Assembly (NCBI RefSeq): GCF_026672275.1
Contig: NZ_JANQCD010000042.1
Span: 1-35,411, forward strand
Direction: 5' to 3'
DNA from: Marinifilum sp. D737
GTDB lineage: Bacteria > Bacteroidota > Bacteroidia > Bacteroidales > Marinifilaceae
Length of the DNA: 35,411 nt
Below the pieces are notes generated by a model. It did no database searches and had not been told where the DNA came from. It saw only the letters and a program-made list of their open reading frames with translations. Shown here piece by piece: positions 5,851-29,003 of the stretch. A program made the position numbers and the translations under genes. How positions within the stretch are numbered: position 1 is the stretch's first letter; every line of letters starts with the position of its first letter.

Positions 5851-5872
5851 GCTTCGCTATTCATAGCGAAGC
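5851..5872 (-). terminator. hairpin overlapping the stop codon of the last permease
   Basis: GCTTCGCTAT, a TC loop, then ATAGCGAAGC form a perfect 10-bp stem. One arm is made of the codons for the conserved C-terminal SLRYE end and the other follows directly after the stop. No strong U-tract follows on the minus strand, so it may act as an mRNA 3'-end stabiliser or a weak terminator rather than a classical intrinsic terminator. Confidence 0.55.
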
Positions 5873-8262
5873 GATTCTACAGGATTTCTTTTGGCAGTTC
5901 TCCACGATTGCCATGTAACAGTTGTGATTGCAATGGCAATGGCAATGATTCCCGACAGTGCAAAAACCCACCAGTTTAATTCGGTTTTGTAGGCGAAGTT
6001 TTGGAGCCAAATGTTCATTACATACCAGGCAATAGGGCAAGCCAAAACAAATGCAACAATTACCCACTTTAGAAATTTGATATTCAACATTTGAATGATT
6101 TCGTAGGTTTTGGCTCCATTGGTTTTTCTTATCCCAATTTCCTTGGTTTTTTGTCTCACTACAAAGCCTACAATGCCAAGCATACCCAGTATGCTAATGA
6201 TAATACTTAGAATGGTAAATGCCTTGGTAGTGTTCTTTAAATGATTTTCATTGCGATATTCTGCTTCCAATAAATCATCGAAGAATTGAAAAGAAAACTC
6301 TCTGTCTTCACGATGCTTTTTGTATGTATCTCGAATATAAGCAATGCTTTCTTTACGCTTGTTTTGGGAAATCCTGATGTTCATTGTCATGATTTGTTCA
6401 GGAGAATTCATTAACACCAAAGGCTCAATTCTGTGATGTAATGATTTAAAATGAAAATCTTTTACTACTCCAACAATCTCATTGTTTCCAATTCTTTGAC
6501 CAATAGGATCTTCGAAGCCAAATAGTTTTTCTGCACTTTCGTTTATCACCACAGGGAATGAAAAAGTGTGATCATCCGATTTTTTTTTCATTTCTTCCCA
6601 ATAGGCAGAATAGTTCATATTTAAGAACTCACCTTTTGTGAGTTTCAGTTCGTAATTATTGGCAAATTCATCGTCAACATGAAGAATAACTGCTTGAATA
6701 CTATCTTTTACTCCATTGTTGTCGATAACAAAATTTGAGCGAAAACCTCCATGCATAGGAGCATAAGTACTTGCCGATGCAGATAGTATGTTAGGGTTTT
6801 GCAAGAGTTCATTTTTGAAGGAATTGCTATCGTACCATAAGCCTGTAGGAACAACTAGCATGTTGCTATGGTTGATTCCCAGATCTTTGGTGGTAATGAA
6901 ATGAAATTGCTTCATAAAGACTCCTGAAACCGAAATGGAAAAAATGGCAATTGCAAACTGGATAACAATGAGTAAATTCATTAGTCCAATATTTCCACCA
7001 CTGTAGTTTTTGGCTTTTAAAATCTGAACAGGATTTAATTTCGACAAGTAAATGGAAGGGTACAAACCAGCTGCTATTGCTGTAAATACAATTAGCAGAA
7101 ACAAGTATGTAATCAACTGCATCGATAGGCTGATTTGTAACTGCTGTCCTGTAAGTTCATTGAATTTTGGCAGCAATACAAATGCCAAAGCAATGGCAAA
7201 AAATGCAGCCACAAAAGTCTGCAGAAAAGAATTCATCATGAACTGTAGCAATAAACTGTGTCGTTTTGCACCATTTACTTTTTGAATCCCAATTTCTTTG
7301 GCTTGTTCAGAATAGCTTACCGTTGAAAGAATGGTAAAGTTTAAAATCACCATAATAAGGATTAGTAAAGCCAAGCCCGAAAAAATTACAACATACTTGT
7401 AATTGCTGATCTTATTATCAAGCATATTGGTGGTGTAATCAGAGTGGAGATGAATTTCAGATATAGGCTGAAACATCAGCTTGTCCGTTCTATTTGAGTA
7501 TCTGCTAATATGATTGCTTATTCGGCTCAAAAACAGATCGTTTATTTCAGCATTAGTTGAAAGTTTGATATAGGTTCTTATCCAGTAGGAATCTCTCCAC
7601 GAATTTGTTGTGTGATGCATGTTTAGATTGGCTTCAGACAATAAGTATCCAAAATCGATATGCGTATTTCTTGGAATTTTTAAAACTGCACTAACCGTGT
7701 AAATGTTTTCACTGTATTTGTCGCTTACTATTTTTTTACCCAAAGCCGAAGAGTTGCCAAAAAGTTTACGTGCAACTTTTTCGGAAAGCACAATGTTTGA
7801 TTTGTGTTTGAATGCATTTTCGGCATTACCTTCCAGAAATTGAAAGCCATCAAAGATTTTAAAAAAATCAGTATTGGTATAGTATTTTCTTGCTTCAATC
7901 TTTTTTCCATTCTCGAATTGTAGTGGGGAATCTTCCGATGATCCATAAAGATATGTGGCAGCCTCGATTTGTGGATAATCCTTTTTAATGGTTTCCGCAA
8001 TTGGCTGGTACGAAACTGCTGATTTAATAATATCCTCACCTTGCTTTGAGAGTGTTAAAACCCGATAAATTCTGTTGTAATCTGAATGAAATTTCTCAAA
8101 AGTGCTTTGATCGTAAACCCATAAATAAATGAGCAATGAAGCTAAAATTCCTATGGTAAAACCTGTGAAGTTAATGATGCTTAAAACAGGTTTTTTAAGA
8201 ATTAATCGGAGTATGATTTTGAAGCTATAATGCATATGTCTTAATTTACTTTTAATTGACAT
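5857..8262 (-). CDS. FtsX/MacB-type ABC transporter permease, duplicated 8-TM form (paralogue 5)
   Basis: 801 aa, inner-membrane protein. It consists of two FtsX-type halves in tandem. TM1 lies at about residues 25-48, followed by a MacB-like periplasmic domain and a three-helix block (about 288-415). A further TM near 430-452 leads to a second periplasmic domain and the last three TMs (about 683-795). Each half has the cytoplasmic coupling motif: KEIGIQKVNGAK near 322 and KEIGIRKTNGAK near 706. This is the only one of the five paralogues in which both copies are well preserved. It is the last gene of the minus-strand operon, 95 bp after the lipoprotein gene, the widest gap in the operon. It should pair with the ATPase encoded at 19618-20310. 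Substrate unknown; families of this type move lipids, lipoproteins or peptides, or transmit force to the periplasm. Confidence 0.93.
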   Translation of the reverse strand: MSIKSKLRHMHYSFKIILRLILKKPVLSIINFTGFTIGILASLLIYLWVYDQSTFEKFHSDYNRIYRVLTLSKQGEDIIKSAVSYQPIAETIKKDYPQIEAATYLYGSSEDSPLQFENGKKIEARKYYTNTDFFKIFDGFQFLEGNAENAFKHKSNIVLSEKVARKLFGNSSALGKKIVSDKYSENIYTVSAVLKIPRNTHIDFGYLLSEANLNMHHTTNSWRDSYWIRTYIKLSTNAEINDLFLSRISNHISRYSNRTDKLMFQPISEIHLHSDYTTNMLDNKISNYKYVVIFSGLALLILIMVILNFTILSTVSYSEQAKEIGIQKVNGAKRHSLLLQFMMNSFLQTFVAAFFAIALAFVLLPKFNELTGQQLQISLSMQLITYLFLLIVFTAIAAGLYPSIYLSKLNPVQILKAKNYSGGNIGLMNLLIVIQFAIAIFSISVSGVFMKQFHFITTKDLGINHSNMLVVPTGLWYDSNSFKNELLQNPNILSASASTYAPMHGGFRSNFVIDNNGVKDSIQAVILHVDDEFANNYELKLTKGEFLNMNYSAYWEEMKKKSDDHTFSFPVVINESAEKLFGFEDPIGQRIGNNEIVGVVKDFHFKSLHHRIEPLVLMNSPEQIMTMNIRISQNKRKESIAYIRDTYKKHREDREFSFQFFDDLLEAEYRNENHLKNTTKAFTILSIIISILGMLGIVGFVVRQKTKEIGIRKTNGAKTYEIIQMLNIKFLKWVIVAFVLACPIAWYVMNIWLQNFAYKTELNWWVFALSGIIAIAIAITTVTWQSWRTAKRNPVESLRYE

Positions 8263-8357: not shown

Positions 8358-9896
8358 CTATTTAACCAGCATTAGTACTTGGTCGGTATCGGAGCAGCCA
8401 TTTGCCAACTGTATCAGCTTTTCTTTCTTGGCTGCAGGAGCAGTTGAATTTTTAAATTCATCAGAAGCAACTTTTTCCTTAATATCTTTTCCTAGTAATG
8501 AAACCATTATATTACCCTCTCGATTTATCATGTAAGAGCTAGGCCAAACAGAAAATCCTCCATCAATGTCGTTTTCGAGTATTGGACTGTTGTAATTGTA
8601 AGGGTCTGATTTTACGAAGTGTAATTGTTTATTTTTCTTGGAGTAAAGGGCATAAAGTAGCTTAATGCTTTTTCTTTTTCTGGAGTTAGGGCAGTAATTA
8701 TCATCCATGATTAAGCCAATAAAAATATAATTATTGCCGTCGGCCCATTGGTTTGGAACCATTTTTCCTTTAAGATCAAACTTAGAATTACTGGCATCTT
8801 GTTTGCTAACCTTATGCTTGCCCAGTTTGATTACATATTCAGGTTTTATAATATTTGGAGGAATTACTTTGAAAATGGTATCGTTATAATCCGATCTGAA
8901 ATAATAATTTCCACTTTTTTCATATTGGGTTCCATAATCAAAACCTCGAATAACACGAGCTTTAAAATTAACCAGACGTTCGAATTTGGTAAATTCGGCT
9001 AAGGTGTCTCCTTTGGTATTGAAAATTTCCAACATGTTACCCTTTCTGCTCCTTCTTGAAAAATAGGTGTTTCGGTCAGGAGTGAAAATTCCAATATACT
9101 CATATGAATTTTGAGGAGCGAATGATGACATGCCGTTTGGATAAGGAGCCTTGAATGGTTTGTTCTGGCCTCTGTTTAGGTCAACCAAAACTTTACCAGC
9201 ACCTGAAACTGCTAATGGATTTTCGGGGTCGAACTGGTACTGAGTATTGATTAAATCTTTGGAGCAATCTACCTCCATAATGTAATTTTGCCCGGAGTTA
9301 GTATTTCTGTAGTTATAATACAATTGATCTCCTCTTGACCAAACACTAGTACTTCCCCCAATATTCGCATATTCGGAATAGTACACTAAAACTTGATTTT
9401 GATCCTCTTTGTACTTTACACCACTTAGTTGGTTTTTTACAATTGTATTTTTAAACTCCCCATTTTTTGTAAACAGATGAATGCCATAAAGATTAGAGGC
9501 TACGATGTGTTTATCTGTCATGTAGTATTTGTAATTGATGTTATTTACAAAACCAGAGTCTGGCAGATTTTGCATTTTAATATATTCAATACTTTTTGCT
9601 ACATCCGAGAGTTTGAATTCTTTAATACTATCCATTCGGTTTTCAATATCAATAACAATTGGAGGATGAGAGGCATCTGTTTTTCTAACCGATTCGAATC
9701 GAAATCCTTTGGGCAATCTGGCCAAAGAGTCAGCCAATTCTTGCTCTTTTTTCAATCGCAGTTCTTCTTTTTGCGCTAAAATTTCTTCTTCACTTAAAAT
9801 TTTTTGAGCCAAATCTTTTTCATTCAACTTCAAGATTTTGTTCTTGCATGAAAAACAAATGATTAACAAGATTGATAGTAAGAGGTTAAGTTTCAT
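8358..9896 (-). CDS. predicted six-bladed beta-propeller lipoprotein within the permease operon
   Basis: 512 aa from the ATG at 9896. That start places a lipoprotein signal at the N-terminus (hydrophobic stretch ending in CFSC, lipidated Cys near residue 17). An ATG at 9923 would add nine residues and overlap the upstream stop, and is less likely. After the Cys comes a highly charged helical stretch (about 20-60, rich in E, K and Q), which could be a stalk. From about 80 to 500 there are repeating four-strand-like segments resembling the 6-bladed beta-propeller lipoproteins of Bacteroidota. No catalytic motif is visible. The gene sits between two permease genes in the same orientation (19 bp downstream of one, 95 bp upstream of the next). 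It is therefore likely co-produced and could act as a periplasmic or outer-membrane partner of the transporter. The propeller assignment rests on pattern, not a search. Confidence 0.8.
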   Translation of the reverse strand: MKLNLLLSILLIICFSCKNKILKLNEKDLAQKILSEEEILAQKEELRLKKEQELADSLARLPKGFRFESVRKTDASHPPIVIDIENRMDSIKEFKLSDVAKSIEYIKMQNLPDSGFVNNINYKYYMTDKHIVASNLYGIHLFTKNGEFKNTIVKNQLSGVKYKEDQNQVLVYYSEYANIGGSTSVWSRGDQLYYNYRNTNSGQNYIMEVDCSKDLINTQYQFDPENPLAVSGAGKVLVDLNRGQNKPFKAPYPNGMSSFAPQNSYEYIGIFTPDRNTYFSRRSRKGNMLEIFNTKGDTLAEFTKFERLVNFKARVIRGFDYGTQYEKSGNYYFRSDYNDTIFKVIPPNIIKPEYVIKLGKHKVSKQDASNSKFDLKGKMVPNQWADGNNYIFIGLIMDDNYCPNSRKRKSIKLLYALYSKKNKQLHFVKSDPYNYNSPILENDIDGGFSVWPSSYMINREGNIMVSLLGKDIKEKVASDEFKNSTAPAAKKEKLIQLANGCSDTDQVLMLVK

Positions 9897-9915
9897 AGTA
9901 TATTGTTGTTTTAAT

Positions 9916-12333
9916 TTATTCATAACGTAAGCTTTCCACCGGATTTCTCTTTGCTGCTCTCCACGACTGCCAGGAAACGGTTAGCAAGGCAATTCCCATG
10001 GCAATGATTCCTGCCAAGGCAAATATCCACCAACTGAGCTCGGTTTTATAGGCAAAATTTTGCAACCACTTATTCATAGCGTAGTATGCAACAGGACAGG
10101 CAATAAGAAATGCGATGCACACCCATTTAACAAAGCCTTTGTTTAGCATTAGAATGATTTCGTGAGTTTTGGCTCCGTTTATTTTTCTAACACCTATCTC
10201 TTTGGTGCGAACCAATGAGCTTATCCACGCCATGGTAAACAGATTGATTACACTAATTACAATTGCGAGGTAGACAAATGCATATAGCATTTTAATTAAT
10301 TGAAATTCCTTGATAAACTGACGATTGTAAAAAGATTTGAGACTTACATATTGGAATGGGTAATTTGGAAAAGTAGTCTCAACTTGTTTTTTAATGTGGG
10401 CAATCACTTCTTGTATATTGGGGTTCTTGTATTTTACAATGTAGTATCCCCACATAATTTCTTGTGTCCAGTTTATTAAAATAGTAGGCCCTGGATATTC
10501 TCGCATACCTTGGAAATTAAAATTAGAACAGATTCCCTTAATCTCAAGTTCAAAGCCTTCCGTCATACTTTCATCTTTCAATTGTAATACTTTCCCAATG
10601 GCATCTTTAGGATGATTGTATCCAAGATCAGACAAACAAGCTTCATTAATCAAGCATCCTGAATTAATGTTATTGGCATTTTTAGGGAAGTTGCTTCCTT
10701 CAAGAAGAGAAATGTCAAAATTCTTTAGGTAATTGACATCAGCTACCATAACGGATGCTTTCGCATTTTTATCTTTTCCTTTTTCTTTAAATGTGAAATT
10801 AAAGGCAAGTAATTCTCCTGGAATTTTGTCACATTGTGAAATCGCTTCTATGTTAGGATGCCTCAGAAGTTCCTGTTCAAATGTTTCGAAATTCTTGAAT
10901 CTACTGGATGATTTGCGCATGTACTTTGGAACTGTTACAGCAATTTTATTGCTTAAATTCATTCCCATATTTTTTTCTTGTAAGAACTCCAGCTGCTTAT
11001 TAATCCCCATAATACATATCAGAATAGCTATTACAATTACAAATTGACTTACCACAAATAGTTTCTGGATAGAAAATCTGGAAGTAAGAGGATTAAATTT
11101 CAATTTTAACAATTCAAGACTATTGTATCGATTAATGAGGATTCCGGTGATAATACCATTGATTAAGGTGCTTAGTAGTACCATGCATAGTAGAATAATC
11201 CAAAAGAGCAGGGGGGCTTCTGAAAAATCAAGTGTAAGCCCGTAATTTGAATATGCCAAAGGAGACAGAGCCTTGCAAATAAAAATGGCCAACACTAAAG
11301 AAAGTAAATGCAGAAGGAATGATTCCAGCAGTGATTGTGAAATTAAACTTCGACCTTTTGCTCCAACCACCTTTCTTAGTCCCCAATTGTTGGCATCTTT
11401 AATGGCTTTGGTATGTGAGAAATGAATGTAATTAAATCCAATGGCAATGAGTATTAAAAGGCCAATTGCCATTAAAACATACAAATAATCAGCACGGGTA
11501 TTTATTGCAAGTTCATCTTTTAAATGTGATTTTAGATGTATATCAGTTAAAGCTTGCAAATAGTAGGTATGTTGAATGTCCCCACCTTCAGCGAGATTCC
11601 TTTTTTTGCTCAATGCAAGTTGATTCATCTTCTTGTTGAATCCATTAATGGAAGCATTGGCTTGGAACTTTAAATAGGTATAAAAAGCAGATTCTCCCCA
11701 TGCTTCCATAGCAGGAGGAGGTAGACGCATATTGTCATGAAAAGACAATAGCATATTGGCCTTAAAGTGTGATTTTTGAGGTAAATCTTTGTATACCCCT
11801 TCTATTTCATAGCTAGCACCTGGATATTTAAATATCGTTTTACCTACCGGATTTTCATCTCCGAAATATTTCCTGGCATATGACTCCGAAAGTATTACAG
11901 TATATGGGCGCTTAAGAGCATCCGAGCGCGATCCGTAAATAAATTCAATCGAAAAGACATTTAATATGCCAGGTGAAGCATGTAAAACATTTTCATTCTT
12001 AAATACTTGTTCATTTATTTTAAATTCAAGATTACCAGGTTTGAAAAAGAAGCCTGATTCCAGAACTTCGGGAGAATTTCTTTTTAACTCGTTACCCATA
12101 GCTCTTTCGCATAAAGGCTTCGTAAGTTTAAGTTCTCCTGAAGTATAAATATTGGTTGCAATGCGATATATATTTTCAGCTTTAGGAAAGTCTCTGTCAT
12201 AACTCATTTCTTGAGAAACATGACTTGCAATAAAAACAAAGGATACAAAACCAATGCATAAAGAAATCAGCAAGAATAAACTTGATAGTAAATTCTTGCT
12301 TAATGATTTAATTGCCATTTTCAACTGATACAT
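9916..12333 (-). CDS. FtsX/MacB-type ABC transporter permease, duplicated 8-TM form (paralogue 4)
   Basis: 805 aa with the same plan as its neighbours: N-terminal TM (about 14-38), MacB-like periplasmic domain, a middle TM block (about 280-400), a TM near 425-445, a second periplasmic domain, and three C-terminal TMs ending in NPVESLRYE. The coupling motif of the second half is KEIGVRKINGAK. The corresponding first-half motif is degenerate (WGLRKVVGAK), with the acidic residue lost. Its last 121 coding bases (9936-10056) are 119/121 identical to the same part of the next gene upstream (12383-12503), although the rest of the proteins differ widely. It lies 29 bp downstream of paralogue 3. It is likely a complete transmembrane unit using the shared ATPase. 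The substrate is unknown. Confidence 0.93.
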   Translation of the reverse strand: MYQLKMAIKSLSKNLLSSLFLLISLCIGFVSFVFIASHVSQEMSYDRDFPKAENIYRIATNIYTSGELKLTKPLCERAMGNELKRNSPEVLESGFFFKPGNLEFKINEQVFKNENVLHASPGILNVFSIEFIYGSRSDALKRPYTVILSESYARKYFGDENPVGKTIFKYPGASYEIEGVYKDLPQKSHFKANMLLSFHDNMRLPPPAMEAWGESAFYTYLKFQANASINGFNKKMNQLALSKKRNLAEGGDIQHTYYLQALTDIHLKSHLKDELAINTRADYLYVLMAIGLLILIAIGFNYIHFSHTKAIKDANNWGLRKVVGAKGRSLISQSLLESFLLHLLSLVLAIFICKALSPLAYSNYGLTLDFSEAPLLFWIILLCMVLLSTLINGIITGILINRYNSLELLKLKFNPLTSRFSIQKLFVVSQFVIVIAILICIMGINKQLEFLQEKNMGMNLSNKIAVTVPKYMRKSSSRFKNFETFEQELLRHPNIEAISQCDKIPGELLAFNFTFKEKGKDKNAKASVMVADVNYLKNFDISLLEGSNFPKNANNINSGCLINEACLSDLGYNHPKDAIGKVLQLKDESMTEGFELEIKGICSNFNFQGMREYPGPTILINWTQEIMWGYYIVKYKNPNIQEVIAHIKKQVETTFPNYPFQYVSLKSFYNRQFIKEFQLIKMLYAFVYLAIVISVINLFTMAWISSLVRTKEIGVRKINGAKTHEIILMLNKGFVKWVCIAFLIACPVAYYAMNKWLQNFAYKTELSWWIFALAGIIAMGIALLTVSWQSWRAAKRNPVESLRYE

Positions 12334-12362: not shown

Positions 12363-14747
12363 TTATTCGTACCTCAAACTCTCCACCGGATTTCTCTTTG
12401 CTGCTCTCCACGATTGCCAGGAAACGGTTAGCAAGGCAATTCCCATGGCAATGATTCCTGCCAAGGCAAAAATCCACCAACTGAGCTCGGTTTTATAGGC
12501 AAAGTTTTCAAGCCATTTGTTCATGGCGTACCATGCAATTGGAGATGCCAAAACAAATGCAATAATTACCCACCTTAGGAAATCCTTGTTTAGCATTTTG
12601 ATAATCTCATGAGTTTTGGCTCCATTGGTTTTGCGAATCCCAATCTCTTTGGTTCGTTGTTCCGATGAAAAGTAGGAGAGGGCACTTATACCCATGATTC
12701 CGATGATGATACCAAGAAGAGAAAAACTCAAGAGAATTTTTCTAAGTATATTTTCTGATTTGTATTGTTGACCAACTTTTTCATCCATAAAGAAATAATC
12801 CATTTCCTGGTTTGGATAGTGTTTATGCCATTCTTCCTGAATGTAATCCATTGCCGGTCTGATATTTCCGGAAGCAATTTTGATATGAGTAAACCTGGAT
12901 CTACTTCGCGACTCTCCAATTAGGAAAACATAGTCTCCGATCTGTTCATGGGCCGAATTGTAATTGAAATCTTCGACAACTCCTATAATATCATACCTTC
13001 TCTGATCTGCTTCCAAAGGAATTCCTGATCTAAAGGCATTCAGATTTTCAATGCTTTGATGTTTTTCCATCAATCTCTCGTACAAATGATTGTTGATAAT
13101 CATTCCTTCAATGGTATCTTTCGATCTGTTGATGTAATCGTGAACCAACTGAATGTCCATTGTTTGTAGAAAATCAAAGTTTGGGAACGACATTTCCGCA
13201 GTACCTTCAATTCCCAATCCATCCAATGAAATGGTTTGAGTAGGATGTCCAAAGTATTGCCTGGTAAAACCAACGGAAATAATTTGAGAATTCTTTTTTA
13301 ACTCGTTGGCAAACACTTTTGGGTCTTTAGAATAGTCCTTTTGATGGATGACTACAATATTGTCTTTTGTAAAACCAAGGGGTTTGTCTAATATGAAATT
13401 GATCTGTTTGTTTACAAGAATGGTTGATGCAATCAGGATGATTACAATTAGCATTTGAAATATCATTAAAGGTTGCAACAATTGCTTTCCCGATAAGGGG
13501 TGTAAACCTTTAATAATTTCGCTGGTAGAATGATTTTTAAGAATAAAGAACCGAACAAATAAAACAGAAATGATTCCACCAAGTGAAATGATCATTAAAA
13601 TGGACAAGTAGATTGTAGGTTCGTTATAGAAAATATCAAACTGAATTTCGTAAAACTGGCTGATAATAGGTTTTATCAACTCTATTACAAATAAGGAGAT
13701 AAAAATAGCAAACGAACAAAGCAACAATACCTCAATTAGGATCTGGTACAACAAATGCTTTTTGTGAGCTCCAATAGAGGATTTCAAACCAAACTCTTTT
13801 GTTCTTTTGAAAAGATTAACTGTGATTAAGCTGATAAAGTTTACAAGAGATACAAATAGGATCACGAAAGAAACAATAGTAAATAAGCCAATATTAATTT
13901 TGGTATTGCTCTCTTTTAATTCAAACCTGCAGTTCGATCTTAAATGAATGTCAGTCAGTTTTTGAAGACTAAATTTGTAATCTTTAGGACCTCTGGTTTG
14001 TCTAAAAGCAGACTTGTTAAAATGGGTAAGTATTTTTTCGGCAATGAAAGCAGGTGAGGTTCCTTTTTTCAGTTTTAAATAGTTGTAGACCCACTGTATT
14101 TTTCTTGTTGATAAGGAGGCATAACGTTGTTCAAGTACTCCTTTTTGCGAAAGAAGTATTTCACAGTTGAAATGAGTTTTTATAGGCGTATTTTTTATAA
14201 TCCCAACGATTTCAAATTTTCCGGGTGCTTCTCTTGATCGCAATGTTTCAGTCTCTATGTATTGACCGATTGGATTTTCATTCTTAAAATATTTTTTTGC
14301 AAAGCGCTCAGAGATAAAAGCTACATTAGGCTTCGAAATATCCTTTAAATTTCCAATCAGGCTTTCAATTCCAAACATGCTCATAAAGTTTGTGTCAACC
14401 GACAAAACATCTTTTTGAGCAACCGATTCCTCGTGTATTTTGATATTTTCCAGCTTTGCATGGGAAAACCGTGTTGCATTTTCAACTTCAGGGAATTGAC
14501 TTGCAGCTTCTTGAATAAAGCCTAAACTCCTGGCCCAGGAGCTGTTAATATGTGATGGCGTAGAAATTACCCTGTAGATATTCTGATAATCTTTAATGTG
14601 TTTGTCGTAGCTTTTTTCATTTTGCACATGAATAAACAGTACAAAAAATGAGGCGATCCCAAAGCTGAGGCCAAATATATTGGTCAATGAAAAAGCTTTG
14701 TTTTTAAGCAAGCGTAAAACGGATAATTTCAAATGATACCAAAGCAT
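12363..14747 (-). CDS. FtsX/MacB-type ABC transporter permease, duplicated 8-TM form (paralogue 3)
   Basis: 794 aa. Order: TM near 17-40, periplasmic MacB-like domain, middle TM block (about 270-410), TM near 425-445, second periplasmic domain, C-terminal TM block with KEIGIRKTNGAK and the NPVESLRYE end. The first-half coupling motif is altered to KEFGLKSSIGAH. The periplasmic regions have little visible similarity to those of the other four paralogues beyond the domain scaffold, for example the NENPIGQ-type loop before each first-domain exit. It begins 17 bp after the stop of paralogue 2. Its 3' end is nearly identical to that of paralogue 4, which suggests gene conversion or recent partial duplication. 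Confidence 0.93.
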   Translation of the reverse strand: MLWYHLKLSVLRLLKNKAFSLTNIFGLSFGIASFFVLFIHVQNEKSYDKHIKDYQNIYRVISTPSHINSSWARSLGFIQEAASQFPEVENATRFSHAKLENIKIHEESVAQKDVLSVDTNFMSMFGIESLIGNLKDISKPNVAFISERFAKKYFKNENPIGQYIETETLRSREAPGKFEIVGIIKNTPIKTHFNCEILLSQKGVLEQRYASLSTRKIQWVYNYLKLKKGTSPAFIAEKILTHFNKSAFRQTRGPKDYKFSLQKLTDIHLRSNCRFELKESNTKINIGLFTIVSFVILFVSLVNFISLITVNLFKRTKEFGLKSSIGAHKKHLLYQILIEVLLLCSFAIFISLFVIELIKPIISQFYEIQFDIFYNEPTIYLSILMIISLGGIISVLFVRFFILKNHSTSEIIKGLHPLSGKQLLQPLMIFQMLIVIILIASTILVNKQINFILDKPLGFTKDNIVVIHQKDYSKDPKVFANELKKNSQIISVGFTRQYFGHPTQTISLDGLGIEGTAEMSFPNFDFLQTMDIQLVHDYINRSKDTIEGMIINNHLYERLMEKHQSIENLNAFRSGIPLEADQRRYDIIGVVEDFNYNSAHEQIGDYVFLIGESRSRSRFTHIKIASGNIRPAMDYIQEEWHKHYPNQEMDYFFMDEKVGQQYKSENILRKILLSFSLLGIIIGIMGISALSYFSSEQRTKEIGIRKTNGAKTHEIIKMLNKDFLRWVIIAFVLASPIAWYAMNKWLENFAYKTELSWWIFALAGIIAMGIALLTVSWQSWRAAKRNPVESLRYE

Positions 14748-14764: not shown

Positions 14765-17152
14765 TTATTCATATCGTATACTTTCCACCGGATTTCTCTT
14801 GGCAGCCCTCCACGATTGCCATGTAACGGTGAGTAGGGCAATCACTACAGAAATAGAACCAGACAAGGCAAAAATCCACCAGCTGAGTTCAGTTTTGAAG
14901 GCAAATTCTTGTAGCCATAGTTTCATAAGATACCAAGCAATTGGGGATGCAAGAACAAAGGCAATTAGGACTAGTTTTAAAATGTCCTGATTCAACATTT
15001 TTACGATTTCGATAGTCTTAGCTCCATTGGTTTTTCGAATACCAATTTCTTTAGTTTTTTGCTTTCCTATAAATAGGGATAATCCGAGTAAACCTAAACT
15101 TGCAATGAGAATAGCTATGAAGGCAAGCATATCTATTATTTTTGATATGCAAAGATCAGACTTGTACAATTCATTCAAGGCATTATTAGTAAATTGAGCC
15201 ATAAAGGGAGTAGTCCCATCAGTTGAATTATAAACCTTTTCAATTTGCAGAATGGTATTTTTTACATTTTTAGATGAGACTCGAATTACCATCTGTCTTA
15301 CCGAAGATGGTGACAAAATAATCATCATGGGAGGAATCTCTTTTCTTAAGGAAAACATATGAAAATTGTCTATTAATCCCAATACGGGACCAAAACTTGT
15401 TTCTTCCCCAATAATATCAGTCAACCCCAGTTGTGCAACAGCAGATTCATTTACCAATACACCAGATTGATGTTTATTTTCCTGAAAATCTTCTCCTCTT
15501 AAGATCTTAATTCCCATTGTTTTGGTGAAATCATAATTCACGAATAAGCCATGTACAGATACTTTCTCATCTGTTCGATCGACACGATCGAGATTTAAGA
15601 ATAGTTGTTGGCTTGTTGGAGGAAGCCACATTGCAGAACTTACCGATTTGATAGTAGGGATTTTTAATAGTTTTTGTTTTAAGATCTCCTTTTTTCGATC
15701 TCCTATAGGCAAATTCACTAATTCTTCCTTGGCAAATCCTAAATCTATATTAAAAGCGTAGTTAACCTGTTTTTTTATAAGTATTGTGGTAGAGGTGAGA
15801 ATTATAAAAATGATAAGTTGAAAAACAATCATTGCTTTGTGCAATGGAAATTTATGTTTTTCCTTAGATTTTAGTCCTTTTAACATGACACTTAATTGTG
15901 TCTTTTTAAATTTTACAAATGTGGCCGAAGCTGTTACTACACCAGTTGCTATGGTAAGACTTATAAGAATAGAGAATCCGATCAAAAAATCAGCATTAGC
16001 ATTCAATACATAGTCTTTATCCAATAACTCACTGGCATATGGAAGTGAGAGTTGGGCAAAAGCAATGGCAAATGGTAACGCTAGTATTGAAAGTAAACAA
16101 TAATCTAATGTAAATTGCTTAAGAATATCTTTTTGAGATGCACCATATGTTTGTCTAACTGCGATACTTTTTAACTTAGTAATGGTTTGAGCCATTGCTA
16201 AATTGAGATAATTAATACATGCAATGCTTAATATTAAAATAGCTAAAATTCCTATTACAATGAGGTTAGTAATATTTCCCTGCTCCTTTCCGCTATTAGC
16301 CAAAATGTGATTAGAGTGAAAATATACATCATATAAGGATTGAATGGACAAATCTAGTTCCTTGTACTCTTTGGAATGGGTTTTTCCTAAATTTTGTAAT
16401 TTTTCGTTTAAAACAGCAGTAGAGCCTGTTTTTCTTATCAAAAGATAATTTGTAAAACAACTGATAAGCCATTCTTTTTTAAGTTCTTCTTTATCTGTTT
16501 GATGGCCGTTGGTTATGATGCTTTTTTCTAGTTCTTCAAATGCAATTTCAGTATTCACTATTATGTCGGGACGAATGCTGTTGTTTTTTGGAATATTATC
16601 AAATACAGCAGCAACTTGCATTAATTTTTCTACACCAAAGAATTTCATTTTTATGTTTTTCCCTATGGAATTTTCATTCCCGAAATACTTTTGCGAGATA
16701 TCTGAGCTAATGTAAATTTTATTTTGGTCTTGTTTGAATCCGTCTAATTTTCCTTGTGTTATTTTAAGCCCAAAAACATTAAAAAATGATTTAGTGGTTC
16801 CAATCACATCATTTTCTTGAATGTATTCTTTATTCTTTTTAAAGGAAACATTCTTCAAATTATAAGTAAAAGTAGCATCTTCTACTTCGGAAAATTGTTC
16901 TTTGCTTAACTCACAAATTTGGTAAGGGGTGGTTCCCCAGATTTTACTATTTAATTTATCATGGTTCAGTACTCGGTAAATGTGATCTTTATTTTTAAAA
17001 TAGCTATTGTAATTAACTTCATTCAAAATATAGACAAGGATAATGGCTACGATTCCAAGTGCCAATACAAGTCCAGATATGCTAATTAATGTATTAACTT
17101 TTTCGGATCGAAATCTGCGAAGGCTTATAATAATATCTTGATATAGATTCAT
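14765..17152 (-). CDS. FtsX/MacB-type ABC transporter permease, duplicated 8-TM form (paralogue 2)
   Basis: 795 aa. It is the most divergent of the five at its C-terminus, which ends NPVESIRYE instead of SLRYE. The TM and periplasmic layout matches the others: TM about 18-42; middle block about 290-410; TM about 430-455; C-terminal block about 680-790. The second-half motif KEIGIRKTNGAK is intact. The first-half counterpart is changed to SIAVRQTYGAS, so only one half keeps the family coupling sequence. It begins 20 bp after the stop of paralogue 1, so translation is probably linked within one operon. Expected in the inner membrane with the ATPase of 19618-20310. The substrate cannot be inferred. 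Confidence 0.93.
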   Translation of the reverse strand: MNLYQDIIISLRRFRSEKVNTLISISGLVLALGIVAIILVYILNEVNYNSYFKNKDHIYRVLNHDKLNSKIWGTTPYQICELSKEQFSEVEDATFTYNLKNVSFKKNKEYIQENDVIGTTKSFFNVFGLKITQGKLDGFKQDQNKIYISSDISQKYFGNENSIGKNIKMKFFGVEKLMQVAAVFDNIPKNNSIRPDIIVNTEIAFEELEKSIITNGHQTDKEELKKEWLISCFTNYLLIRKTGSTAVLNEKLQNLGKTHSKEYKELDLSIQSLYDVYFHSNHILANSGKEQGNITNLIVIGILAILILSIACINYLNLAMAQTITKLKSIAVRQTYGASQKDILKQFTLDYCLLSILALPFAIAFAQLSLPYASELLDKDYVLNANADFLIGFSILISLTIATGVVTASATFVKFKKTQLSVMLKGLKSKEKHKFPLHKAMIVFQLIIFIILTSTTILIKKQVNYAFNIDLGFAKEELVNLPIGDRKKEILKQKLLKIPTIKSVSSAMWLPPTSQQLFLNLDRVDRTDEKVSVHGLFVNYDFTKTMGIKILRGEDFQENKHQSGVLVNESAVAQLGLTDIIGEETSFGPVLGLIDNFHMFSLRKEIPPMMIILSPSSVRQMVIRVSSKNVKNTILQIEKVYNSTDGTTPFMAQFTNNALNELYKSDLCISKIIDMLAFIAILIASLGLLGLSLFIGKQKTKEIGIRKTNGAKTIEIVKMLNQDILKLVLIAFVLASPIAWYLMKLWLQEFAFKTELSWWIFALSGSISVVIALLTVTWQSWRAAKRNPVESIRYE

Positions 17153-17172: not shown

Positions 17173-19539
17173 TTATTCGTACCTTAAAGATTCCACAGGA
17201 TTAATTTTAGCAGCCCTCCACGATTGCCACGAGACAGTTAGCAAGGCAATGCCCAGGGCAATGATTCCCGCCAAAGCAAAAATCCACCAGCTGAGCTCAG
17301 TTTTGTAGGCAAAACCACTAAGCCATTTGTGCAAAGCATACCAGGCAATAGGGCAGGCAATGATACAGGCAATAAACACCCACTTTACCAAATCGGCATT
17401 CAACATTTTAACAATCTCGAAAGTTTTGGCACCATTGGTTTTTCGTATTCCAATTTCCTTCGTGTGAGTTTCAACAATAAAAAAGGTCAAGCTGATTAAT
17501 CCCAGGCAGGATAGGAGTATAGAAATTATGGTGGCATAATTTAGAATGCGCTGAAATTGTTTTTCCTTCTTGTACAAAGCTTCCCAGCTTGCATCAAGGT
17601 ATTTGATTTCCAGTGAAAAATTAGGAGAAATATTTTCCCAAACCTTGTTAATGGAACGAATACACCTGTTAGTACTGGCAACACTGCTGGTGTTGATTTT
17701 GAAATAAATGTACTCATCAGATTCTCCACAACTTCTAAAAGCAATTGGCCTTATAGCTGAATGCATGGATTCATGGTTAAAATCTTCTACTTCGGCAATT
17801 ACTTTTCCTGTCTTGCCATTGTATCGAATTGTTGCATCTTCTGGTTTTTCGATATTGAATTCTTTAAAAGCCATAGCATTAAAAATCCAATCTGCATTTT
17901 CCTTTGAATAACGATTAAACTGTTTGCCCTGAACCAATTTGATTCCAAAAAAATCGAAGAAATTTGGACTTACGAAAAGATTGGCAAAACCAATTTCCTG
18001 TTTTTCTCCTTTGTTAATCATGCTTAGTCCCCAATTGGATTGATTGTAACCTAATGGAGCAGATGTATAAGTATAATCAGCAATTTCGGGTATCCTTTTA
18101 ATTTCAGTATTAAAGGCACTACTGCTTTTCTCGATTTGCGGATTGGTGGCAGCATAAAGAATTTGTTCTTTATCAAAACCAGGATCCAACTCACTCATGT
18201 AATTGTTTTGCTTGTTGATCAAGAGGATGCCACACAGTAAAATGATTGTAATGCTAAATTGGAAAATCAGCAAAGCATTTCTCAAATGGTTTTGCGAACG
18301 ACTATTTACCGTGTTTTTTAACAATGCCGTAGTTTGGCTCCTGCTAAATCTTATTCCGGGAATAATTCCGGTGAGTACAAAAGTAAAAGCAAGCAGCGCA
18401 ATAAAGATGATCAGGTTTGATCCTGAAAAAATCTCAGCCAAAGTAAATTCCGAATTGGTAATTTGATTTAATCCGATCAGTAAGAAATTGCTCAATACAA
18501 TTACCAGTACACATGTAATGAATAGAACCAATGCAGATTCAACAGCGATTAATTCAACAACTTTGGCCTTTTTACTTCCCATTACCTTAAGGATGCCAAT
18601 ATTTTTTAGGCGCTTAATTTTTTGTGCAGTAACCAGGTTTATGTAATTGATACATGCAAGCAGAAGAATTAAAAATCCTATGATTTGTATAATGTTTAAG
18701 GTAAGTTGATTCCCATGTTTTAAAATCTCAATTTCGGGTAAATCATTATAAGCTTTGGCAAATGGCTGAAGCTCAAATTTGGTCTCTTCTCTATATCCTT
18801 CCGGGATGTTGTCGGTTGAGATATTGGCAAGTTTCCGATTGATAACTCCGGCATCAATATTAGGTGGTAATTTTGCAAAAGCACTATAGTTTTGAGTACC
18901 CCAATATTCTTCGCTGCTTTTAAACCAATGAATTTTATAATTGGTGTCAAGCGACAGTACTGCATCAAATTCCCATGAACAATGATGAGAAAGGTCTTGA
19001 ATAACTGCTCCTACCTCAACAATTACATTTTGCAGGTTGGTGGAATTGTATACCAACTCTTTCCCTATAGGATTTTCATTGCCAAATATCTTTTTAGCTA
19101 CCGATTGAGTCAATACAATTTTATCGGCTGTATTTAAAGCTTTTTTAGGATCACCGTAAACCGCTTTAAACTGAAAAACCTTAAAGAAACATGAATCTGC
19201 AATTAGCAGATTTTCTAGCTTATAATCTGTATTCTCTTTTTTCAGAAAATCCTGTGGCGACCAGGTATACTTTGCAAATGTTATTGCTTCTATTTCCGGA
19301 ACTTCAGACCTAACATGTCTGGCCATGGCGCTGGAAATATCAGGATCTTTTTCATTTAAAAGCGTGTAGGTATATTCGATATCCGCAATCTCCTGATCCA
19401 TATTTTTCTCCTTGTTTACATAGGCGAAAACAAGCAGACTAATTGTAATTCCTATAACTAAGCCACTAATATTAATCGATGATACCAGCTTATTCTTTAA
19501 TAAGTTTTTGAATGATATTTTAATGTTGTAGAAATTCAT
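17173..19539 (-). CDS. FtsX/MacB-type ABC transporter permease, duplicated 8-TM form (paralogue 1)
   Basis: 788 aa, the first permease of the operon, 78 bp downstream of the ATPase gene. It has a TM near 17-40, a periplasmic domain with the GNENPIGKEL loop, a middle TM block (about 275-400), a TM near 420-440, a second periplasmic domain, and a C-terminal TM block carrying KEIGIRKTNGAK. The end is NPVESLRYE, preceded by AAKI rather than the AAKR of its neighbours. The first-half motif is degenerate (NIGILKVMGSK). As with its paralogues, the fused two-half structure could make it a self-sufficient transmembrane partner for an ATPase dimer. Specific cargo is not readable. Confidence 0.93.
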   Translation of the reverse strand: MNFYNIKISFKNLLKNKLVSSINISGLVIGITISLLVFAYVNKEKNMDQEIADIEYTYTLLNEKDPDISSAMARHVRSEVPEIEAITFAKYTWSPQDFLKKENTDYKLENLLIADSCFFKVFQFKAVYGDPKKALNTADKIVLTQSVAKKIFGNENPIGKELVYNSTNLQNVIVEVGAVIQDLSHHCSWEFDAVLSLDTNYKIHWFKSSEEYWGTQNYSAFAKLPPNIDAGVINRKLANISTDNIPEGYREETKFELQPFAKAYNDLPEIEILKHGNQLTLNIIQIIGFLILLLACINYINLVTAQKIKRLKNIGILKVMGSKKAKVVELIAVESALVLFITCVLVIVLSNFLLIGLNQITNSEFTLAEIFSGSNLIIFIALLAFTFVLTGIIPGIRFSRSQTTALLKNTVNSRSQNHLRNALLIFQFSITIILLCGILLINKQNNYMSELDPGFDKEQILYAATNPQIEKSSSAFNTEIKRIPEIADYTYTSAPLGYNQSNWGLSMINKGEKQEIGFANLFVSPNFFDFFGIKLVQGKQFNRYSKENADWIFNAMAFKEFNIEKPEDATIRYNGKTGKVIAEVEDFNHESMHSAIRPIAFRSCGESDEYIYFKINTSSVASTNRCIRSINKVWENISPNFSLEIKYLDASWEALYKKEKQFQRILNYATIISILLSCLGLISLTFFIVETHTKEIGIRKTNGAKTFEIVKMLNADLVKWVFIACIIACPIAWYALHKWLSGFAYKTELSWWIFALAGIIALGIALLTVSWQSWRAAKINPVESLRYE

Positions 19540-19617: not shown

Positions 19618-20310
19618 TTAAAATACCTGCTCCGCTACCAAACTTTCTTCAGTTACAACTTTACCATCAAACAGGTTGATAATTCGGTGAGCATAACCTG
19701 CATCTTTCATGGAGTGAGTTACCATGATGATGGTAGTTCCTTCGCGGTTCAATTCGGTAAGCAACTCCATTACTTCCTGACCATTTTTTGAATCCAGGTT
19801 ACCAGTAGGCTCATCGGCAAGAATAAGTCCCGGGTTGGAAACTACGGCGCGAGCAATGGCAACACGTTGCTGCTGACCACCTGATAATTGCTGAGGGTAA
19901 TGTTTCGCACGATGACTCATGTTCATTCTATCAAGTACCTGGCTTACCATTTCCTTGCGTTTTTTAGAGCTGATGCGCTGATATACCAAGGGCATTTCAA
20001 CATTTTCGAATACATTTAATTCATCTATCAAGTTGAACGACTGAAATACGAAACCAATGTTTCCTTTTCTCAAGTCGGTGCGTTGACCCTCCTTCAAATT
20101 GGCAACTTCGGTCTTGTTAAAATTGTATTCACCTTCCGATGGATTATCCAATAAACCCAGGATGTTTAAAAGGGTAGATTTACCACAACCCGAAGGTCCC
20201 ATAATGGCTACAAATTCACCTTCTCTAATGTTTAAGTTTACATTGTTCAAGGCTAAAGTTTCAATTTCATCAGTTCTGAAAATTTTCGATAAATTTTTAA
20301 TAGAAATCAT
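19618..20310 (-). CDS. ABC transporter ATP-binding protein (LolD/MacB class)
   Basis: 230 aa from the ATG at 20310. A GTG at 20334 would add eight residues but would lie only about 12 nt from the predicted transcription start, so 20310 is preferred. All ABC motifs are present: Walker [10 protein letters not shown] (K44), Q-loop FVFQSFN, signature LSGGQQQR, Walker [11 protein letters not shown]-loop region NLDSKNG, and H-loop THS. Sequence and length fit the LolD/MacB/FtsE class, which drives FtsX-type permeases. It is the first gene of the operon and the only ATPase visible for five permeases, so it is inferred to serve all of them. A -24/-12 promoter lies directly upstream. Confidence 0.96.
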
Positions 20311-20356
20311 ATTCTTTGTTTTTAAATAGTACACATGTAAAATTATTGCTCACTAT

Positions 20357-20371
20357 TGCCAACTTTGTGCC
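20357..20371 (-). promoter_or_regulatory. sigma-54 (-24/-12) promoter for the ABC transporter operon
   Basis: On the minus strand the sequence is GGCAC-AAAGT-TGGCA, which matches the TGGCAC-N5-TTGCA consensus with the required GG-N10-GC spacing. Transcription would start near 20346, about 36 nt before the ATG at 20310. It faces the transporter operon and is next to the gene for an NtrC-type activator, so the assignment has both sequence and context support. Confidence 0.78.
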
Positions 20372-20416
20372 GCAATTTGTAAGTGTCAAAAAATCAATAC
20401 GAAAAGAAAGGTGTGA

Positions 20417-20461
20417 TTTGGAAGTGTGTAAAATATTTGGACAGTGTATGTCTAATATTTT
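20417..20461. promoter_or_regulatory. candidate enhancer (UAS) for the NtrC-type regulator
   Basis: An imperfect dyad spans 20430-20461: AAAATATTTGGACA, a 5-bp spacer, then TGTCTAATATTTT. It overlaps a direct repeat of TTTGGA(C)AGTGT starting at 20417 and 20436, about two helical turns apart. It lies roughly 50-90 bp upstream of the -24 box of the transporter operon and about 95-140 bp upstream of the regulator gene. This fits the usual distance for an activator of sigma-54 promoters. Confidence 0.55.
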
Positions 20462-20554
20462 GAAAAGCTGACTAAATTAGTGCTGGATGTTTACATTTAA
20501 CCACGAATTACACATTCACTCATTCACTAATTCACCCATTCATTCACCAAACCA

Positions 20555-21916
20555 ATGAAAAAATCAAATATTCTAATTGTCGACGACAACCGAAGTGTTT
20601 TAAGTGCATTGGATCTGTTGTTATCGCCATACTGTGCAAAACTGAAATGTTTATCCTCACCCAAAACCCTATTTGCCGAGCTGCAAAGCGAAGACTACGA
20701 TGTTGTTTTGCTGGACATGAACTTTACAGCAGGCATCAACAATGGCAATGAAGGCATTTATTGGTTAAACCAGATATTGGAGCAATATCCGGGCGTGAGT
20801 GTTGTAATGATTACCGCCTATGGGGATGTGGAATTGGCTGTGAAAGCGGTTCGTACCGGCGCTACCGATTTTGTTCTGAAGCCTTGGGACAATGAAAAGA
20901 TGATTGCAACCGTTGATACAGCCTGTAAGCTAAGTCAGTCGAAGCGAGAGCTGAAAAAGATGCAGCTAAAAGAGAAGCAGTTCATCCAGGAGATCAACGG
21001 ATCGAACAAAGATTTAATTGGCTCATCTGCCACCTGGGAACGTGCCATGAACATGGTTCGCAAAGTGGCCGATACCAATGCCAATGTGCTGATCACCGGT
21101 GAGAATGGAACAGGGAAGGAGTTGATTGCAAGGGAAATTCACCGACTTTCGAAACGATCGAACAAAGTAATGGTGAGTGTTGACATGGGAGCCATTGCTG
21201 AAAATCTGTTCGAAAGCGAATTGTTTGGTCACAAGAAAGGAGCCTTTACCGATGCGCATTCCGATAGAATGGGGAAAATAGAGGCTGCCAACAAGGGAAC
21301 ACTATTTCTCGACGAAATTGGAAACCTTACCATGCCCATGCAGGCCAAATTGTTGTCGGTGCTCCAGAACAGGGTACTTACCAAGGTGGGCGACAATTCA
21401 CAAACCAAGCTTGATTTGCGCCTGATATGTGCCACCAATGGAAACCTGCAGCAAATGGTCTCCGAGGGCAATTTTAGAGAGGATCTTCTCTACCGAATCA
21501 ATACCATACACATCGAAGTGCCACCTTTGCGCGATCGTAAAGATGATATCCCCGAACTGGCAGAATTCTTTGTGAACAAGTATGCCGATAAGTATGGAAA
21601 GAATTTAAAAATAAGCAGTCAGGCCCTTTCCAAGTTGAGCGATTACGCCTGGCCGGGAAATGTTAGAGAGTTGCAGCATTCGGTTGAGAAAGCCGTAATT
21701 CTTTCGGATGCCCGGCAATTAACTGCAAGCGATTTTGTGTTCAAGAACGACGATATGAACAATGTATCCAGCTTTGGCGGAACCCTGGAGGATATGGAGG
21801 CACAGTTGATTGCTTCGGCCATCGAAAAACATGCCGGAAACCTTTCAGCCGTATCAACACAGTTGGGCATTTCTCGTCAAACCCTCTACAATAAAATCAA
21901 GAAATATGGGCTATAA
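20555..21916 (+). CDS. NtrC-family sigma-54-dependent response regulator
   Basis: 453 aa with three domains. The receiver domain (1-125) has the phospho-acceptor D54 in VVLLDMNF, a DD pair near residue 10 and the conserved K near 107. The AAA+ domain (about 150-380) has Walker A GENGTGKE (K188), the sigma-54 contact loop GAFTDA (229-234, where GAFTGA is commonest), Walker B LFLDEIG (D253, E254) and R-finger-type motifs. A Fis-type helix-turn-helix closes the protein (about 425-453). It should activate sigma-54 promoters when phosphorylated by the kinase encoded just downstream, whose gene overlaps this one by 11 bp. The divergent transporter operon carries a matching -24/-12 promoter and is the obvious target. 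No convincing promoter of its own was found. Confidence 0.96.
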   Translation: MKKSNILIVDDNRSVLSALDLLLSPYCAKLKCLSSPKTLFAELQSEDYDVVLLDMNFTAGINNGNEGIYWLNQILEQYPGVSVVMITAYGDVELAVKAVRTGATDFVLKPWDNEKMIATVDTACKLSQSKRELKKMQLKEKQFIQEINGSNKDLIGSSATWERAMNMVRKVADTNANVLITGENGTGKELIAREIHRLSKRSNKVMVSVDMGAIAENLFESELFGHKKGAFTDAHSDRMGKIEAANKGTLFLDEIGNLTMPMQAKLLSVLQNRVLTKVGDNSQTKLDLRLICATNGNLQQMVSEGNFREDLLYRINTIHIEVPPLRDRKDDIPELAEFFVNKYADKYGKNLKISSQALSKLSDYAWPGNVRELQHSVEKAVILSDARQLTASDFVFKNDDMNNVSSFGGTLEDMEAQLIASAIEKHAGNLSAVSTQLGISRQTLYNKIKKYGL

Positions 21917-23249
21917 GAATTACAACCTGGCACTTTGGATTAGAATGCTAATTCTGTTGACTACCGCCATTTCATGCGGTTATGCCATTGCCACAGCATC
22001 CTATTTGTCCCTTTCATTTTTGGGTTTGATGATCTTGCTTGAAGTTTGGGAGCTCATTCGATTTCTGAACAAAACCCACAAGCAGATCGACTTTTTTATC
22101 AAAGCCATTAAAAACGAGGATACCACACTTCGCTTTCCCGAAAAATCAGGCAACAGCATTATTAACGAATTGCACCATAGTTTAAACGAGCTGAATGGCA
22201 TATTGCAGCAAGTACAGACCAAATCCAGAATCAGGGAAAAGTATTTTGGCGAAATCTTACAGAACATATCCACCGGAGTGATTGTGCTTTCGGAAAACAC
22301 GCACATTACCAGTGTAAATTCGGCCGCACTCGAATTGTTGGGATTGCCTGCACTTACACACATCAGTCAGCTCAACAGAATGGATACCCGGTTTACCAAT
22401 TCGCTGCTCGAAATCTCGAACCGGCAAAAGCAGGTTCTGGAACTGTCAACCCCAAAGGAGAGAGTGCAGATCAGCACGGCCTGTTCGGTTATCCGAATCG
22501 ATCAGGAAGACATTAAACTCATCACCCTGCAGGACATTCGTGGAGAGCTGGAACGAAAAGAGGTAGATGCCTGGATCAAACTGATACGAGTATTGAGTCA
22601 TGAAATCATGAACTCCCTGGCTCCGGTAACTTCCATTGCACAATCGCTAAAGCGGATTTGGGAAGAAAAATCAGAAATGATTGTAGATGAAAACCTGGCA
22701 ACAGAAGTAGGCAAAACCGTAAACGGATTGGGTGTGATTACCGAAATGAGCGAAGCATTGATTCATTTTGTGAAATCCTACCGCATGTTGTCCAAGCCAC
22801 CAAAACCGATCATGGGCAGTGTAAACTCCATCGAGTTTTTCGACCGATTAAGCATTCTTCTTTCTCCAATTAAGGAGGAATTTGAGGGCGAATTGCTGAT
22901 TCAAACCCCCAAAAGATCCTTCGATTTTGTGGCCGATGAACAGATGATTGTTCAGGTAATTATCAATTTGGTAAAGAATGCCAGGGAAGCATTCAACGGA
23001 GAAGCCGAGCATGGAAAGATCAGTGTGAACTGTAACAAGAAAGGACCAATTTGCGAGATCAATGTAATTGACAATGGCCCGGGCATACCTGCCGAAATTG
23101 CCGACGAAATTTTCATTCCATTCTTCACCACCAAAACAAACGGAAGCGGCGTTGGCCTAAGCCATTCCCGACAAATTATTCGCGCCCATGGCGGAAGCTT
23201 GTATTGCAGCTCCAAACCAAATCAAACCATATTTAAATTGAGGTGGTGA
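21906..23249 (+). CDS. membrane sensor histidine kinase with minimal periplasmic loop
   Basis: 447 aa from the ATG at 21906, which overlaps the regulator stop by 11 bp; upstream in-frame starts lie deep inside the regulator gene and are unlikely. Two TM helices (about 10-29 and 32-51) are joined by only a few residues, so there is no extracytoplasmic sensor domain. A HAMP-like/helical linker and a PAS-like domain (about 105-210) follow. The phospho-accepting H232 is in [11 protein letters not shown]. The ATPase domain has N-box [11 protein letters not shown]1 DNGPGIP, F-box FFTTK and G2 GSGVGLS. It is expected to phosphorylate the adjacent NtrC-type regulator. The sensor layout resembles intramembrane-sensing kinases such as BceS, which detect activity of FtsX-type permeases. 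That parallel is an inference. Confidence 0.94.
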
Positions 23250-23874: not shown

Positions 23875-24315
23875 ATGCCACATGTAAAAGTATATATACA
23901 TTTTGTATGGAGTACCAAATGCAGAGAGCCTTTTCTTGAAACTCCGGAGTTAAGAAAAAAGATGTGGAATCACATCAAAAAGAATGCAAAGGAAAAAGGA
24001 ATTCATGTCGATTTTGTCAATGGGTATGAAGACCATTGTCATTGTTTGGTATCATTGGGAAGTAATCAAACTTTGAGTAAAATCATGAGTCTAATAAAGG
24101 GAGAGTCATCACATTGGATCAATGAATGTATTTTTCGGAAACCATTGTTTCAATGGCAAGAAGAATATTATGCTGTCTCGGTTAGCCTATCCATGCTCAA
24201 TAAGGTAAGAGAGTACATCAAGAATCAGGAAACACACCATAGCCATAAATCATTTGATGAGGAGAAAAATGAGATGATTGAGAAATTTGGTTTTGTGAAA
24301 CATTCTGGGGTATGA
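23875..24315 (+). CDS. IS200/IS605-type Y1 HUH transposase
   Basis: 146 aa, full length for a TnpA of the IS200 kind. It opens with a VYIHFVWSTKCREP motif, has the HUH metal-binding pair H54 and H56 in DHCHCL, a conserved IKGESSHWIN helix, and the likely catalytic tyrosine Y114 in VREYIKNQETHH. These enzymes cut and join single-stranded DNA at hairpin ends. No accessory tnpB is present. The gene lies between hairpin-bearing repeat blocks (23769-23842 and 24325-24450). Those could be its substrates, or it could be a domesticated REP-processing enzyme. It appears intact. Confidence 0.93.
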   Translation: MPHVKVYIHFVWSTKCREPFLETPELRKKMWNHIKKNAKEKGIHVDFVNGYEDHCHCLVSLGSNQTLSKIMSLIKGESSHWINECIFRKPLFQWQEEYYAVSVSLSMLNKVREYIKNQETHHSHKSFDEEKNEMIEKFGFVKHSGV

Positions 24316-28911: not shown

Positions 28912-28977
28912 GTTTTAGGATATTTAACATTAAAATTCAAATCTAATTAAAAATTCTTATAGAATAGAATGATGTTG

Positions 28978-28985: not shown

Positions 28986-29003
28986 AGCAATAATTTTTTT
29001 TCT

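Follow-up and report, generated by a model that had tools for sequence, protein, structure and literature searches.

The window analysed here (35,411 nt; contig C67 of the 5.08-Mb genome of Marinifilum sp. D737) carries a run of exporter genes and, divergently beside it, a two-component gene pair, which raises the question of what controls the exporter. The initial annotation had proposed that the regulator acts through a sigma-54 promoter on the exporter genes. This wiring was supported by conservation, fixed helical spacing, repeated paralogous modules and the presence of rpoN in the genome (one PF04552 match, at C90, E 6e-53). We consider it very probable that the locus forms a local, phased sigma-54 switch composed of a two-component regulator, tandem operators and an exporter operon. 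The features are collected in Table 1.

Table 1. Features of the exporter locus and its putative control region in the window
Feature	Position	Strand	Remarks
MacB/FtsX-type permease E	5857..8262	-	Pfam
521-aa probable lipoprotein	8358..9923	-	signal peptide and cysteine read from sequence
MacB/FtsX-type permease D	9916..12333	-	Pfam
MacB/FtsX-type permease C	12363..14747	-	Pfam
MacB/FtsX-type permease B	14765..17152	-	Pfam
MacB/FtsX-type permease A	17173..19539	-	PF02687 and PF12704
ABC ATPase, LolD/DarD type	19618..20310	-	PF00005; best NCBIfam match NF038007, below cut-off
Predicted transcription start, exporter operon	20346..20347	-	from -24/-12 spacing
-24/-12 sigma-54 promoter CGGCACAAAGTTGGCA	20357..20372	-	faces ATPase gene; GG-N10-GC present
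Proximal operator (putative) TGTAAAATATTTGGACA	20427..20443		other strand TGTCCA-N5-TTTACA
Distal operator (putative) TGTCTAATATTTTGAAA	20449..20465		centre 22 bp from that of the proximal operator
NtrC-type response regulator	20555..21916	+	Pfam PF00072, PF00158, PF25601, PF02954
Sensor histidine kinase	21906..23249	+	PAS and HATPase_c (Pfam); start codon by comparison with relatives

The regulator gene was found to encode Response_reg, Sigma54_activat, AAA lid and HTH_8 domains, with the receiver, the sigma-54 AAA+ domain and the Fis-type HTH (PF00072, PF00158 and PF02954) all over cut-off, as the initial annotation had claimed for an NtrC-type activator. The phospho-acceptor was placed by eye at Asp54 in VVLLDMNF, the Walker A motif reads GENGTGK, and the recognition helix reads SRQTLYNK. 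The kinase gene begins within the last codons of the regulator gene, so that the two overlap. The nearest named relatives are Marinifilum, whose copies of the regulator in L039-L042 and L052 are 92-97% identical to that of the window.

On the minus strand, the exporter genes run in the order ATPase, four permeases, the 521-aa gene and, ending at 5857, the last of the five permeases, with intergenic gaps of 78, 20, 17, 29, -8 and 95 bp. These gaps are consistent with one transcript from about 20346 to 5857, and we infer that the genes form a single operon. The ATPase gene probably starts at the ATG at 20310, as judged from the start codon in a seven-locus alignment; the ORF list begins at the GTG at 20334. 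All five permeases matched MacB/FtsX over Pfam cut-offs and were 27-32% identical to one another. They scored 179-226 bits against the ADOP model TIGR03434 and did not reach its cut-off of 622.3. The ATPase likewise lay below the DarD and LolD equivalog cut-offs (296.9 vs 375 and 226.3 vs 307.75, respectively). An adaptor gene and an outer-membrane gene, as in a tripartite MacAB-TolC system, were absent from the window operon. By family, the exporter most likely serves to remove peptides, lipids or lipoproteins from the envelope during stress. The sole adaptor relative found in this genome, despite its five exporter modules, lies at C42:435202-436443, and a search of five Marinifilum genomes (E up to 1e-20) gave one such adaptor gene per genome.

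The 521-aa gene sits among the permeases and had no family match over cut-off, only a weak sub-threshold match to DUF4933. A broken permease was considered and rejected, as the product lacks a permease domain and looks like a lipoprotein; two genes related to it were found in L217. Permease sets varied between Marinifilum species (L217, L218 and L219) beside a 98-99% identical ATPase. They numbered five in L217, at least six in L218 and three in L219, as a mix of copies 93-98%, 78-88% and 23-32% identical to the window permeases. Elsewhere in the window, we observed a gene of the 23S rRNA intervening-sequence protein family just past the operon end (5431-5778), a divergent pair of an EcoO109I-type restriction endonuclease and a C5 cytosine methylase (28186-30485), and two IS200-type transposase-like genes (Y1_Tnp; 23875-24315 and 30668-31213). 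Rfam at the gathering threshold and a tRNA scan of the window gave no matches.

In the intergenic region, the GGCAC-N5-TGGCA element was present at 20371-20357 on the minus strand, and the imperfect dyad was present at 20430-20461 as AAAATATT..AATATTTT with the core GACA-N5-TGTC (20440-20452), both as first described. The direct repeat TTTGGA(C)AGTGT was rejected as an element, since its first copy (20417-20427) is not kept in relatives. The proposal that the dyad is the regulator's motif held in that the dyad is conserved, and was revised in its form. Instead of one operator, we prefer to see in it the meeting point of two putative 17-bp sites of the form TGTnnn-N5-nnnACA that stand in tandem; the dyad takes in the inner halves of both and parts of their outer halves. 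The centre of the proximal site lies 64 bp upstream of the -24 GG, and the outer half of the distal site is degenerate in Marinifilum (TTT for TGT). By sequence, two putative upstream activator sites are present, which are conserved and phased as described below.

The 244-nt intergenic region (20311-20554) was shuffled 5000 times with dinucleotide composition preserved. An equal-scoring -24/-12 element arose in 140/5000 shuffles, a GACA-N5-TGTC dyad in 20/5000 and the tandem-site pattern in 13/5000. In the whole window, six sites scored at least 10 on the sigma-54 consensus used, and two of them, at 8792 (+) and 7187 (-), outscored the promoter, both inside genes. The window without conservation is only suggestive: its matches are, taken alone, only moderately unlikely, and it is conservation that makes the case for the promoter and operators.

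We compared 16 loci from close relatives, comprising seven Marinifilum (including the window), six Labilibaculum, one Ancylomarina and two unclassified Marinifilaceae. Left out were L049, which has only 185 nt of contig ahead of the regulator, L052, which shares a contig with L010, and the partial genome G003 (L013 and L156, the latter showing the pattern described below at length 98). As the proposed wiring requires, the -24/-12 element and the dyad were conserved. All 16 loci aligned ungapped over 116 nt, with the distal operator at one end of this stretch and the -12 element at the other, and with the operators and the -24 element at the same offset in 16/16. Mean pairwise identity was 94% in the distal operator, 85% in the proximal operator and 74% in the promoter; it was 42% in the N5 between the operators and 48% in the 55-nt spacer. 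In one of these loci (L050), the promoter fell below the score threshold in one scan. The first gene under the switch was the ATPase in Marinifilum and an HlyD-type adaptor in those Labilibaculum-group loci whose genes were listed (L043, L046 and L048). In L054 and L056, the order was TolC-type gene, adaptor, ATPase; a domain check of the L054 and L043 genes identified the L054 regulator neighbours as HlyD_3 and OEP. By this comparison of predicted sites, the switch has persisted while the operon under its control changed.

These alignments bear on the possibility that the -24/-12 element and dyad are chance matches in AT-rich intergenic DNA, kept by recent common descent. The moderate rarity of the window matches would allow this, but the sites and their spacing are kept where the intervening DNA is down to 48% identity, and the phased geometry recurs in family genomes and paralogues. 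We regard chance as a negligible explanation.

A more serious alternative is that the regulator binds one operator, the central dyad, with the flanking halves as mere context. All 16 close relatives carry an exact central GACA-N5-TGTC, and the dyad reaches seven of eight pairs in L055 and L048, with the window copy below that level. More distant loci point the other way. Among 22 further orthologous loci, seven carried two full TGT-N11-ACA sites (L053, L056, L059, L062, L063, L080 and L105), four carried one and 11 had none in range. The centres in the seven two-site loci were 21-23 bp apart, and the distance from the -24 GG up to the nearer site was 62-66 bp in five of them and 74-75 bp in the other two. 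Paralogues of the C44 type likewise carry two full sites, and those of the C86 and C130 types carry a single TGT-N11-ACA site in the same orientation. A single central operator thus appears unlikely, and we retain the reading of two tandem sites. No TGT-N11-ACA site was found upstream of the regulator in L073, L074, L075, L107 and L082 (gammaproteobacterial, Nitrospirota and Flavobacterium loci), so that the geometry was seen only in Bacteroidales-type genomes.

We then described the geometry as a pattern of a GGCA element, a gap of 46-76 and two sites, with lengths of 88-120 allowed. In the window's own genome, it gave four matches at three places (the window, the C44 module and C69) and no control matches. 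Across 56 family genomes, the pattern gave 109 matches, with a match in 42 genomes, compared to 22 (13 + 9) for the reversed pattern used as control; 72/109 matches had a length of 96-98. We examined 30 loci from this search, corresponding to 34 pattern instances, with downstream genes counted by hand. An exporter gene (TolC, adaptor, ATPase or permease) lay downstream in 19/23 instances of length 96-98, compared to 2/11 of other lengths, namely L143, at length 100, and the L154 site read in a second register. The four instances of length 96-98 without an exporter gene were L129, L145, L149 and L156, the last with none found on a short stretch.

From the regulator side, we sampled 104 distinct loci, drawn from a longer list of regulators matched, with upstream regions identical over the first 250 nt counted once. 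A promoter candidate was present in 83/104 loci, the scan finding none in 21/104. A site lay 50-112 bp above the exporter-facing -24 element in 67/104, with no TGT-N11-ACA in range in 37/104. All 104 site-promoter pairs fell at 62-66, 74-76, 84-88 or 96-98 bp, bins that were drawn after the distances had been seen, and many of the loci are closely related, so that the counts are not independent events. With one distance per site, 93 pairs remained, all within the same four bins; the excess was due to sites that had two candidate promoters, chiefly those of the C44 group. Without the 11 loci that the geometry pattern had supplied, 91/91 pairs were within the bins, and control windows of equal width elsewhere held 3, 4, 11 and 3 pairs. 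When the data were collapsed to 26 distinct helix-distance combinations, phase concentration peaked at periods of 10.75-11 bp (R 0.83, n = 38). The distances between putative sites and predicted promoters are helically phased.

The same distances argue against a further alternative, in which the conserved block serves mainly the divergent regulator gene by autoregulation or repression, with exporter control being secondary or exerted via a primary-sigma promoter. Conservation is highest (94%) in the distal operator, which lies towards the regulator gene and whose flank is conserved among the seven Marinifilum loci, and no promoter of the regulator gene itself was identified, all of which would suit such a role. 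But it is the distance to the exporter-facing -24 element that is fixed, with the dyad found anywhere from -78 to -197 from the regulator start. In L133 and L138, moreover, one site pair lies between two outward, divergent sigma-54 promoters, each at pattern length 97, one facing a TolC-type gene and the other an ATPase, both exporter genes. We therefore judge it quite improbable that the block exists mainly for the regulator gene, and keep to control of the exporter as its probable main function.

Sequence comparison establishes the parts of this switch, their conservation, their fixed spacing and phasing, and the lack of a second exact copy of the operator pair in this genome. From these parts, a route of activation can be proposed. 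The sensor kinase would phosphorylate the response regulator, whose dimers would bind the two tandem operators on one face of the helix. An AAA+ ring would form at the operators and contact sigma-54 polymerase at the -24/-12 element via a short DNA loop of fixed length. This contact would lead to the open complex and to transcription of the ATPase-permease operon. Phosphorylation, binding, ring assembly and activation are what we infer for this locus.

The range of targets was assessed in the window's own genome. An exact search for the window operator pair found no second copy, which makes the window regulator look local. With one mismatch, the search gave one further weak place (C92) against one control match, and the strict operator pattern with up to three mismatches gave the window site only. 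A C44-type tandem operator with a -24 element was observed at C69 (promoter near L126:7850), before a 596-aa gene (L126:5990-7777) that carries an AAT acyltransferase domain and lies on a different contig from the C44 regulator. This gene is likely a second target of the C44 regulator, in trans. C44-like TGTTGG-N5-CCAACA sites were also seen at other places in G001, G002 and G004.

The genome encodes ten sigma-54 activators with near-complete domain matches, in addition to five weak partial matches. Five are of the exporter type (C67, which is the window, C86, C130, C42 and C44), each with a HATPase kinase, an ABC ATPase and MacB/FtsX permeases, and C42 also with an adaptor. Recognisable operator sites were found in 4/5 of these modules, and within the genus the exporter-facing -24 element of each module is conserved. 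The sequence of the half-sites was tracked by residue x of the recognition-helix motif TLYxK. With D at this residue, sites were found in 17/17 loci, with G at half-site position 5 in 66/66. With R, sites were found in 9/24 loci, a group that takes in 11 site-less loci of the C42/L107 helix type, with C at position 6 in 18/18. With N, as in the window, sites were found in 33/54 loci, which include five site-less loci of another, 37%-identical regulator type, and A stood at position 6 in 79/84. For H and S, sites were present in 5/6 and 3/3 loci, with A in 10/10 and 5/8 half-sites, respectively. The link between helix and half-site is nested in clades, D and R each behaving like one clade with few independent changes, and we treat it as a lead. 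The operator of the C42 paralogue was not found: none of 11 loci whose helix reads RTSLYRR or RASLYRR had a TGT-N11-ACA site, and this sets a limit to the one-residue rule.

A second lead concerns the sigma-54 contact loop, which in the window regulator reads GAFTDA instead of the exact GAFTGA. Among 33 orthologues and paralogues, the loop was GAFTDA in 23, GSFTDA in nine and GAFTGA in one. All five exporter-type activators of the genome have GAFTDA or GSFTDA; the five other full activators have GAFTGA (two), GSFTGA and GSFTSA, with C108 not matching the loop pattern. In 60 distinct phased family promoters, G stood at -13 in 59, although it was not a selection criterion, and the -12 C, kept in the window, was present in only 24. 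In this comparison, which covers promoters of the family only, the GAFTDA loop may be paired with a relaxed -12 element. GAFTDA activators would then work at promoters with a relaxed -12. A Desulfovibrio study, in its accessible part, places GAFTDA among the variants expected to keep activity (PMC4641369).

Taken more widely, these observations suggest a picture that we offer tentatively, as a possibility that we lean slightly against. Bacteroidota of this family may run insulated copies of an exporter circuit, with private operators read largely by the TLYxK residue (N for TGTnnA, R for TGTnnC and D for TGTnG). Enhancers would be placed only at whole helical turns, GAFTDA would go with a relaxed -12, and the permeases would turn over rapidly between species under a conserved switch.

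Textbook enhancers tolerate changes in distance, and the NtrC site is TGCACC-N5-GGTGCA. The window system resembles the NtrC/ZraR/LuxO class in its receiver-AAA+-Fis HTH regulator, its tandem dyads upstream of a -24/-12 promoter and its 6-N5-6 sites. It differs in having GAFTDA and not GAFTGA, in its TGTnnA half-sites and in its much stricter spacing. The variable TLYxK residue aligns by eye with LuxO Arg427, which is among the critical residues in the accessible part of that work (PMC11407668). Compared with the DarBCD darobactin exporter, ADOP and MacB, the window ATPase is nearest to NF038007 (DarD) and the permeases match TIGR03434 and the DarB model NF038008. Unlike in these systems, the matches are below curated cut-offs, there are five permeases per ATPase, and the operon has no adaptor or outer-membrane gene. 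In Flavobacterium psychrophilum, sigma-54 (SM4) -24/-12 promoters are experimentally supported at envelope-related genes; the targets named in the accessible part of that report include chaperones, proteases and gliding genes, with no exporter of the window type among them (PMC9723704).

The closest comparison is a 2025 study that predicted COG0577 FtsX-like permeases to be controlled by sigma-54 in Bacteroidia and Gammaproteobacteria and, in its accessible part, calls such control in Bacteroidia first evidence (PMC12316311). Those systems share the promoter class, the kind of target and the phylum with the window. They differ in that the study, in the same part, reports promoter enrichment only and names no regulator operator, phasing or paralogue-specific sites; the literature searched, mostly without subscription papers, gave no description of these three either. 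The type of switch was already known, and its precise, repeated layout, of unusually clean geometry, is the new detail. The layout provides a sequence-readable rule of operator, spacing and target for a class of Bacteroidota regulators, and its repetition within genomes makes exporter regulons predictable. It also raises the testable idea that the GAFTDA loop is linked to the relaxed -12 element, and offers natural sets of paralogues for testing site choice by NtrC-type regulators and the strictness of DNA-loop phasing.
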